DNA of 49,987 nt from Saprospiraceae bacterium. GTDB taxonomy: Bacteria > Bacteroidota > Bacteroidia > Chitinophagales > Saprospiraceae. The position numbers and the translations under genes were made by a program. The stretch spans positions 4,491 through 54,477 of the forward strand of contig JANQZX010000146.1 in NCBI GenBank assembly GCA_030728245.1. Reading direction: 5' to 3'. The notes under the pieces were generated by a model. It had not been told where the DNA came from and did not search any database. It saw only the letters and a program-made list of their open reading frames with translations. Positions 15,559 to 19,823 of this stretch are shown piece by piece (the stretch's first letter is position 1; the number at the start of each line of letters is the position of its first letter).

Positions 15559-15657
15559 ACAATTTGACGTTTATCTGAACAATAATTGGATAAAGTTACT
15601 TATTTAACTAAACCGTTTCCTTTGGCGGAAATAATTAGGTCGAAAAAAGTTATATTT

Positions 15658-17082
15658 ATGAATATGAAATGGATAGCGACTTTTATTGGAATATTGATTT
15701 ATTTTTATGGATTTGGCCAGAAGCTGGTAGTTTCTGATGAAATTCCTTTGCGAAGTGAGGTAAGGTATGATATTTTAGGAGAAATAAAGGGTAATGCATT
15801 AATGATGAGTACCATTGGCCTGAAATATGAAATTTCCGGCTTTGATGAACAGATGAGAAATTCCTGGACAAAGGAGTTAAATTTCGAAAAGAAGCAGATC
15901 GGCATCATGGGTTATAACGTCAGGGAGAGTGATTTCACCTTAATCTATCAAGTCAGGCAACAAGGAGATACGTATTTACGTGCGCATAGATATGATGCGT
16001 CAGCTAATCTGAAAGACTCAGTTACATTAATTAATATGGGATTTATTGTATTCTTTCCAGAATATGAAATGGTAGTATCGGAGGACAGGAATAAGGTTTT
16101 ATTTTATGCGATTGACAAAGGAAACGAGCTACACGCTTTTGTGCTAGACAATGAGACCATGGACTTATTATGGGAGAAGCGAATAGTCATTGACAGCTAC
16201 AGTAATTTTGACAATCCAATGTCAGTAACTATTGACAACGAAGGGAATATGTATTCTTTTATCCAGGAGAGTGTATATAAACAAAGAAGGGAAGAGGGTC
16301 ACTTCAGGTTAATCATTTATGGTAAAGGACAATTTGGCCCTAAAATTTCAACGATACATTTAGGAGAAAAGGTAGTATATGATGCACGCTTCATATTCGA
16401 TAATCTGAATAAAAAATTAATTGCATCTGGATTCTATTATAATAGGAATCCTGAAAAAGCGGAGGGATACTTTCTTGTAAATCTTAGTCCTGAGGGAAAT
16501 TTAGAAAAGGCAAAATTACAGGCATTCAACGATCGGTTTGTGTCAGATTTAGAGGGTAAAGATTCGAGAAATAACCGGGGCATAATGAATATTAATATTG
16601 CTGATCTTATTTTAAGACATGACGGGGGGCTTTTAATTATAGGAGAAGAATCGCAGGATATGGAGCGGCGGATCAATAATATGAACCGGATGATGTATGA
16701 TAATTTCAGCCGCAGCATTATAGATTATTATTATAACGATATATTCATCATAGCTATTAACCCGGACGGGGAATTTCATTGGCAGTCCATACTGTATAAG
16801 AAACAATATTCGCAGGATGACATGGGGGCATTTTCCTCATTTTTCATATTTCGGACGCCTGAAAAATTGCATCTTCTTTTCAATGATGAGATAAAATATG
16901 AGAACACGGTAAGTGAATATTTATTAAGAGGCGACGGAAAATCGGAACGAAAAAGTATTTTAAGTACTGAAAATCAGAAGATAAGACTTCGCTTTAAAGA
17001 CGCCTTACAAGTCAATGCCCAGCGTATCATCATACCTAGTGAACGGCGGGGAAGACTTCGATTAGCCAGGTTAGAATTTTAA
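15658..17082 (+). CDS. Secreted protein of unknown function, propeller-like
   Basis: 474 residues from the ATG at 15658 (MNMKWIATFIGILIYFYGFGQ), which directly opens a signal peptide; the upstream TTG of the longer frame would not. I do not recognise a named family. The body is rich in short beta strands separated by acidic turns, with repeated patterns of the kind FDNPMSVTIDNEGNMYSFIQES, VSEDRNKVLFYAIDKGNELHAFV and DIFIIAINPDGEFHW, which suggest a beta-propeller or similar repeat fold with aligned 'value now, value expected' strands. No catalytic motif or cysteine cluster is evident. It ends 22 bases before dapD and may share its transcript, though a secreted protein has no obvious link to lysine synthesis. 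Confidence 0.6.
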   Translation: MNMKWIATFIGILIYFYGFGQKLVVSDEIPLRSEVRYDILGEIKGNALMMSTIGLKYEISGFDEQMRNSWTKELNFEKKQIGIMGYNVRESDFTLIYQVRQQGDTYLRAHRYDASANLKDSVTLINMGFIVFFPEYEMVVSEDRNKVLFYAIDKGNELHAFVLDNETMDLLWEKRIVIDSYSNFDNPMSVTIDNEGNMYSFIQESVYKQRREEGHFRLIIYGKGQFGPKISTIHLGEKVVYDARFIFDNLNKKLIASGFYYNRNPEKAEGYFLVNLSPEGNLEKAKLQAFNDRFVSDLEGKDSRNNRGIMNINIADLILRHDGGLLIIGEESQDMERRINNMNRMMYDNFSRSIIDYYYNDIFIIAINPDGEFHWQSILYKKQYSQDDMGAFSSFFIFRTPEKLHLLFNDEIKYENTVSEYLLRGDGKSERKSILSTENQKIRLRFKDALQVNAQRIIIPSERRGRLRLARLEF

Positions 17083-19689: not shown

Positions 19690-19720
19690 TTGGTGTAAAA
19701 CTGATATTAAATTATCTTTA
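19690..19720 (+). promoter_or_regulatory. Possible Bacteroidota-type promoter for the mini-lipoprotein
   Basis: TTG at 19690-19692 and TATCTTTA at 19713-19720 resemble the -33 TTG and -7 TAnnTTTG elements with a 20-base spacer (one mismatch in the -7 box). If used, transcription would begin within a few bases of the ATG at 19725, giving an almost leaderless message. Such AT-rich matches arise by chance, so this is tentative. Confidence 0.3.
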
Positions 19721-19724
19721 AGCC

Positions 19725-19823
19725 ATGAAAAAACTAAAAATAAACTACGTTTTTGTACTGTTAGTAATTATTTCCGTCCTAATAAATGCTTGCAAAACGG
19801 GATGTGGGTGTCCAATGAACTGA
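19725..19823 (+). CDS. 32-residue lipoprotein with ten-residue CxC mature peptide
   Basis: A short frame of 32 codons plus TGA in the gap between the glycosyltransferase and RNase G genes. It starts MKKLKINYVF, runs through an uninterrupted hydrophobic stretch (residues 8-20), and reaches a lipobox LINA-C with Cys23. After cleavage only CKTGCGCPMN would remain: an N-terminal lipidated cysteine, then a Cys27-Gly-Cys29 pair and Pro30. The match to a lipoprotein signal peptide from first to last residue argues for a real gene. I recall no named family. It could be a very short lipopeptide holding a metal or taking part in thiol chemistry at the periplasmic membrane face. It converges with the RNase G gene with a six-base gap. 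Confidence 0.6.
   Translation: MKKLKINYVFVLLVIISVLINACKTGCGCPMN

Follow-up and report, generated by a model that had tools for sequence, protein, structure and literature searches.

A frame of just 32 codons, lying within a 49,987-nucleotide stretch of DNA from a Saprospiraceae bacterium (the whole stretch analyzed, hereafter the window; source genome of 3.9 Mb in 157 contigs), is a conserved gene that encodes a mini-lipoprotein, with orthologues across Saprospiraceae and other Chitinophagales (table 1). Its product belongs to an unnamed, widely conserved family of mini-lipoproteins, in which a lipid anchor is followed by a very short peptide built around a Cys-Pro pair. As for function, the best-supported mechanism that we can offer, on sequence comparison and with somewhat less than even confidence, is that of a free-standing, lipid-anchored "track tail" that would form a disulfide bond with GldK.

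Table 1. Features of the mini-lipoprotein locus, in positions of the window
Feature	Coordinates	Strand	Basis
Mini-lipoprotein gene	19725..19823	+	Translation; intact in 7/7 genus genomes, third-position bias
Type II signal peptide MKKLKINYVFVLLVIISVLINA, lipobox LINA-C	19725..19790	+	Sequence
Mature part CKTGCGCPMN	19791..19820	+	Orthologues retain C-[KR]-x(1-4)-C-x-C-P
Possible Bacteroidota-type promoter: TTG (19690-19692), 20 bp, TATCTTTA (19713-19720)	19690..19720	+	Weak inference
Glycosyltransferase (GT), GT28 C-terminal domain (family-28-type), PF04101	18496..19635	-	Pfam; divergent from mini-lipoprotein gene
RNase E/G (rng), PF10150	19830..21434	-	Pfam; convergent with mini-lipoprotein gene

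The Gene and Its Predicted Product

The frame translates to MKKLKINYVFVLLVIISVLINACKTGCGCPMN (32 codons and a TGA), exactly as the original prediction had read it, namely as a complete lipoprotein signal peptide followed by CKTGCGCPMN. The product displays the basic n-region, the hydrophobic h-region and the lipobox ending in cysteine that are characteristic of type II signal peptides. If the precursor is processed as this lipobox predicts, the mature peptide would have the 10 residues and three cysteines foreseen at the outset, one cysteine being lipidated. The lipidatable Cys at +1 is followed by a basic residue at +2, free cysteines at +5 and +7, and a proline at +8.

The region of the 19700s is almost invariant across the seven genomes of the genus and contains a candidate promoter, the position of which is not conserved in other genera and which imperfectly resembles the -33/-7 consensus. 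Since TATCTTTA ends 4 bp ahead of the ATG, the mini-lipoprotein mRNA would be nearly leaderless if this element were genuinely its promoter. A structured RNA or leader upstream of the gene was rejected, because the 85 nt concerned fold no better than shuffled sequences (z 0.06), and no terminator was found.

A Conserved Protein-Coding Gene

The seven available genomes of the genus, the own genome among them, all have an intact open reading frame at this position, free of frameshifts, with unchanged start and stop and identities of 84-100%. When the seven sequences are aligned, which requires no gaps, variable sites are distributed as 4/1/12 over codon positions 1, 2 and 3 (chi-square against a uniform distribution of about 11.4, 2 d.f.), and pairwise dN does not exceed 0.07 when dS reaches up to 0.79. 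Profile searches of the own genome returned a single match (E 3.5e-11 to 6.6e-16), and orthologues occupy the same place in dozens of genera with unrelated signal-peptide sequences but the same CxCP core.

Further orthologues came from profile searches in Saprospiraceae and from named rng loci (the organisms being named through the rng neighbor). Once pooled, the orthologues amount to 74 distinct peptides, the gene of each diverging from the same GT, converging with the same rng, or both. As the pooled set was chosen by the CxCP pattern, the invariance of CxCP within it is partly circular, and we relied on two noncircular tests, that is, the alignment columns of independently retrieved matches and the size of the gap between rng and GT. 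Of 30 named rng-GT pairs, half harbor the gene: rng and GT are 100-1800 bp apart in all 15 of these, but -56 to 47 bp apart in 14 of the 15 pairs that lack it (Mann-Whitney p 1.6e-5). A phylum-wide profile search of 392 genomes, with 19 candidates scored per genome, returned fragments of long ORFs outside Saprospiraceae; the relatives of the wider family presented below come from smaller profile searches.

The signal peptides of the 74 orthologues are barely alike beyond their hydrophobicity. Position -1 of the lipobox is restricted to A, S or G (36, 22 and 16 peptides, respectively) and position -3 is mostly L, I or F. The mature part begins with C-[KR] in 71/74, continues with one to four residues and then reads C-[G/D/N]-C-P, the residue in the middle of the CxC being a glycine in 55 peptides. 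After CxCP, the peptide either ends (8-9 residues), extends by one or two residues (MH, MY, MN, Y) or carries a short variable tail, so that the mature length is 8-11 residues in 41/74. The lipobox and the C-x-C-P thiols thus persist where DNA and signal peptides have diverged, a pattern that had been proposed as a check on the GCGCP tail, together with the substitution and frameshift comparisons reported above, and these checks all favor the gene.

Taken together, the intact frames in congeners, the codon-position bias, the low dN/dS, the retained core and the gap test argue for a real gene, and what had been suspected to be an unlisted gene below the size of routine annotation turns out to be one. 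The small number of codons and the overlap with the presumable 3' untranslated region (UTR) of rng might have suggested a frame open by chance within conserved intergenic DNA, or else an antisense RNA. Yet codon-position bias, low dN/dS, the rng-GT gaps and a core conserved at the protein level, unlike the DNA and the signal peptide, all contradict this reading, which is rejected as far as sequence can reject it and is almost certainly wrong.

The Locus and Its Evolution

The gene lies on the strand opposite to both neighbors, its stop codon being separated from that of rng by 6 bp. A divergent, adjacent GT is found for 66 of the 74 orthologues, including those of other Chitinophagales families, and rng is the convergent neighbor in 41, its synteny being observed in Saprospiraceae; 33 orthologues have both neighbors, 33 GT only and eight rng only. 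Because other Chitinophagales families keep the gene beside GT with no rng in range, the link with GT is older than that with rng, and GT is the oldest syntenic neighbor of the mini-lipoprotein. The gene was originally described as sitting alone between genes of RNA decay and glycosyl transfer: the arrangement is in fact conserved across the family, but it holds true that neither neighbor explains the function, and a function deduced from an operon was rejected, GT and rng both being on the other strand. Many members of the Saprospiraceae have lost the gene. It is within this family that the organism and the relatives named through rng belong, and not within the Cytophagales, where homologues were initially to be sought.

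Several side observations were made around this locus. At two loci (L012, positions 1420-1500, and L039), a likely rng terminator hairpin (GGCCTTCC...GGAAGGCC, its T-run being on the rng strand) is situated past the mini-lipoprotein gene, upstream of its start, an arrangement that would make the rng 3' UTR completely antisense to the mini-lipoprotein mRNA. Tandem divergent copies of the gene also occur at the GT locus, one being of the CxCP type and the others having a single GCP, with three copies at L053 (positions 1519-1979) and two at each of four other loci (L010, L049, L078, L079). Elsewhere in the window, a 498-aa ORF without Pfam match is found upstream of dapD and pth (15586-17082, + strand).

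A Wider Family in Bacteroidia

Across Bacteroidia, the wider set of mini-lipoproteins follows a common plan: the lipid-bearing Cys, two to eight residues that are often basic, Cys-Pro, any residue and then usually an aromatic one. The single free Cys conserved throughout is that of the Cys-Pro pair, its thiol being kept 5-8 residues away from the lipid; the CxC is the mark of the query branch, in which both free cysteines are kept (GT/rng group), and the sister branches (GCP, CPAY) retain one free thiol. In a generic-lipoprotein control, Cys-Pro was found near the lipidated Cys in 2/72 cases, which correspond to two near-identical ORFs, this control being crude and including spurious frames.

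Two paralogues are encoded by the own genome, CNRGYGCPTNFKLSSMVSEIISSLAQILS (G000:C37, L132/L242) and CNRKTGCPAMNQTADFRKNN... (G000:C70, L142/L265). Of 43 loci of the first type, 12 have a gene for PDH E1-beta and 17 one for an Mpl-like ligase beside the mini-lipoprotein; the genes that come next encode the monothiol bacilliredoxin BrxC (PF11009) at 22 loci and an MnmD-like methyltransferase (PF05430) at 30. The corresponding CNRGYGCP.../CPAY-type sister locus is conserved and observed across Bacteroidia families (L132, positions 1501-1659; L329, positions 1058-1590; L016; L023-L025). Relatives in other families of Bacteroidia, for example CHKDRCPAYKITILAK, CKAHGDCPAYGKQ, CRAKKVDCPAYGKV, CRSKRCDCPTWGKD and CSNKLCPAYGTYPKTGR, are often encoded beside BrxC, OsmC being recurrent in several of those loci. 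A third type, with a basic tail (GCPA...K-rich...LFPKxMRK), is found near a gene for HU and a peptide ABC-transporter permease (L142, positions 2501-2701; L149; L150; L156-L158; L070). Pfam and NCBIfam hold no family for these mini-lipoproteins, no known Rfam family was matched, and we found no paper describing them among the open-access literature searched.

Which Side of the Membrane

Surface display of Bacteroidota lipoproteins requires an acidic lipoprotein export signal (LES), with at least two acidic residues just after the Cys (PMC5080379). None of the 74 orthologues has two consecutive acidic residues at +2 to +7, and 51 have no acidic residue at all at +2 to +6. Surface display is rejected on this ground, and in the absence of an acidic signal the mini-lipoproteins should probably face the periplasm; we infer, in addition, that they are sorted to the outer membrane.

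A Putative Disulfide Partner for GldK

In Flavobacterium johnsoniae, SprF and PorG each have a periplasmic tail with Cys that forms a disulfide with the invariant Cys343 of GldK, a lipoprotein that is part of the moving track of the gliding/type IX secretion (T9SS) machinery, and the CxC of SprF has been proposed to form a strained disulfide that donates the bond (PMC12635249). Like the mini-lipoproteins, these tails are short, flexible and membrane-proximal, with a CxC or a single Cys at variable spacing. In the genomes studied here, they also share with the mini-lipoproteins a CP-x-aromatic/hydrophobic signature and nearby basic residues. Indeed, PorG-like barrels and many of the PorP/SprF ones terminate in a Cys-Pro-x-[FYW] signature: Cys-Pro occurs within the last 20 residues of 18/28 distinct DUF6089/PorG-like barrels and of 8/51 PorP/SprF (25/51 with any Cys there), when none was found across the 21,420 residues of the barrel bodies of both groups (Fisher p 1e-20 for PorG-like and 3e-10 for PorP/SprF, values that overstate independence, the sequences being related). 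Barrel tails such as KSRKKTGCPTF, GKQFGCPTF and KKDFGCPKF resemble the mini-lipoproteins CNRKTGCPAMN, CNRGYGCPTFSL and CKSGCGCPKFS.

The same holds in the own genome, where PorG (L406, identified by NF052316 with 163 bits, the cut-off being 130) ends with GNLRCPDISRRK (tail RCPDISRRK), a PorP/SprF protein (L369) has the tail GSGVFCPTFSGY, ending GVFCPTFSGY, and a PorG-like protein (L439) the tail GKKGSPCPTFW; the Cys-Pro motif common to these tails and the mini-lipoproteins spans about four residues and could be convergent. GldK is present as well, with one non-lipidated Cys that is invariant in 31/31 aligned GldK sequences and lies at ORF position 297 in the own genome; by this invariance, Cys297 appears to be equivalent to Cys343 of F. 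johnsoniae. As a separate observation, the PorP/SprF C-tails fall into classes, many ending in PRYF/PRFF/PRFY without Cys and others in (N/S)DCxxxFR or CPRF/CPTF (L338-L387, L418-L437), which perhaps reflect different ways of coupling to the track.

On the basis of this resemblance, and of the presence of a GldK with an invariant Cys, we propose that the mini-lipoprotein could be the "tail" alone, a hook without a barrel. After export by Sec, lipidation and cleavage at C23, the product would travel to the periplasmic face (inner leaflet) of the outer membrane, reduced to the lipid anchor and 10 residues. There, the Cys-Pro thiol would act as a membrane-anchored disulfide partner, most likely of the reactive invariant Cys of GldK. 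The CGC pair could pre-form a strained disulfide and donate the bond, in the manner suggested for SprF; attack by the GldK thiol would yield a GldK-lipopeptide adduct in which two lipid anchors are joined by a disulfide, thereby tying the track to the outer membrane. Alternatively, the peptide might cap, or hold in reserve, the GldK cysteines unoccupied by SprF or PorG. With greater hesitation, at a level of belief clearly below an even chance, the proposal may be extended to the large Bacteroidia family of lipopeptides with mature parts of at least eight residues, which would be free-standing copies of the PorG/SprF disulfide hook, covalently coupling the outer membrane to moving GldK.

Several points weigh against the hook. 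The shared motif is so short that it could have arisen by convergence, and many of the Saprospiraceae that have lost the gene presumably keep GldK. SprF and PorG couple through a barrel, when an anchor alone would have no evident cargo to move; they are outer-membrane barrels and not lipoproteins, and the GldK disulfide was demonstrated experimentally only for them. The query itself is no member of PorG or SprF, its mature part being 10 residues without an outer-membrane beta-barrel domain. The third position after the Cys is aromatic in 35/45 mini-lipoproteins against 10/26 tails (hand-picked sets), and the query has an Asn there (CPMN). The neighbors of the mini-lipoprotein genes are not T9SS genes, and co-occurrence with GldK is uninformative, since 115 of the 119 Bacteroidia sampled have GldK.

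Other Functions Considered

Three alternatives to the hook deserve serious weight, namely a CGC redox catalyst, a barrel ligand resembling LptM, and the binding of heme or metal. The lipid-anchored C-G-C could instead be a minimal isomerase or oxidant for envelope proteins, a local thiol-disulfide catalyst with no fixed partner. The CxC is indeed kept throughout the GT/rng branch, most often with Gly in the middle, and small CGC peptides mimic protein disulfide isomerase (PDI), with a reported reduction potential of -167 mV near the -180 mV of PDI (Woycechowsky and Raines, as cited in PMC4316792). Such peptides share Cys-Gly-Cys with the query but are synthetic or part of large proteins. The sister mini-lipoproteins, unlike them, lack a second free Cys, and a dithiol is therefore not what the family shares functionally. 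BrxC does adjoin the sister group, and OsmC is close by in other families, but both are cytosolic, and the Pro and the aromatic residue would be left unexplained; we therefore consider this catalyst unlikely. In this regard, the thiol chemistry originally proposed for the CxC pair keeps its general form, given that free cysteines are retained in the GT/rng group and the Cys of Cys-Pro family-wide, but the single free thiol of the sister branches argues against an obligate CxC metal or dithiol chemistry at the core of the function, and persulfide chemistry found no support.

Another candidate comes from LptM (YifL), a lipoprotein of the LPS translocon considered as a barrel ligand (PMC10567701, PMC12644819), after which the anchor and about 10 residues could dock in the lateral gate of a barrel (LptD, BAM, TonB-dependent or T9SS) as a small structural subunit. 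The anatomy is the same: a small lipoprotein in which the lipidated Cys and some 10 residues make up the active part. Conservation in the mini-lipoproteins is likewise confined to about 10 residues next to the lipid, beyond which the tail varies or is missing. The structure of LptM resolves no more than its first 10 mature residues, the N-terminal part suffices, and deleting residues 22-30 strongly impairs LptDE binding (PMC12644819). LptM was also the top weak NCBIfam match of one member (NF047847, E 0.017, 15.2 bits against a cut-off of 27.7), but this match spans only the signal peptide, and the query gave no match to LptM. LptM differs furthermore by its 67-aa precursor, its occurrence in Proteobacteria and its lack of Cys-Pro, and what is conserved in the mini-lipoproteins are thiols and not a Cys-free binding motif, all of which makes this docking quite improbable.

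A CxC can bind soft metals, and CxC(P) or Cys-Pro might form, at the membrane, a site for Cu(I), Zn(II) or ferric heme. The Cys-Pro dipeptide, present here, is a recognized transient heme-binding motif in short peptides (PMC10377097). The sister groups nevertheless have a single free thiol and, except for the peptide permease by the third type, no metal, heme or transport gene recurs as a neighbor in the branches examined, which renders such a site decidedly improbable. Lastly, a membrane-perturbing lipoprotein of the entericidin or colicin-lysis type, suggested by the small size common to all of them and by sub-threshold matches to entericidin B and Lysis_col (12.5 of 94 and 13.3 of 27 bits), is highly improbable, as these matches do not extend past the signal peptide, neither an antitoxin partner nor a lysis cassette was found, and the known proteins have neither conserved thiols or Cys-Pro nor a family-level match; the related idea of a signal made from a hydrophobic signal-peptide remnant is ruled out by a signal peptide that varies when the Cys-Pro core is conserved, the opposite of the pattern expected for a pheromone.

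Implications

These results add to the Bacteroidia an unannotated, strongly conserved and widespread family of lipoproteins, present in several copies per genome and among the smallest known to us. Lipoproteins are a known class, in which members stripped down to an anchor and a disulfide tail would represent a novel form. If the link with GldK fails, the question remains why a lipid anchor and a Cys-Pro have been kept for so long at fixed loci. If it holds, missing disulfide clients of the track would be named, the reported partners being two barrel proteins, and the clients of the gliding/T9SS engine would include, besides barrels, ribosomally made lipopeptides.
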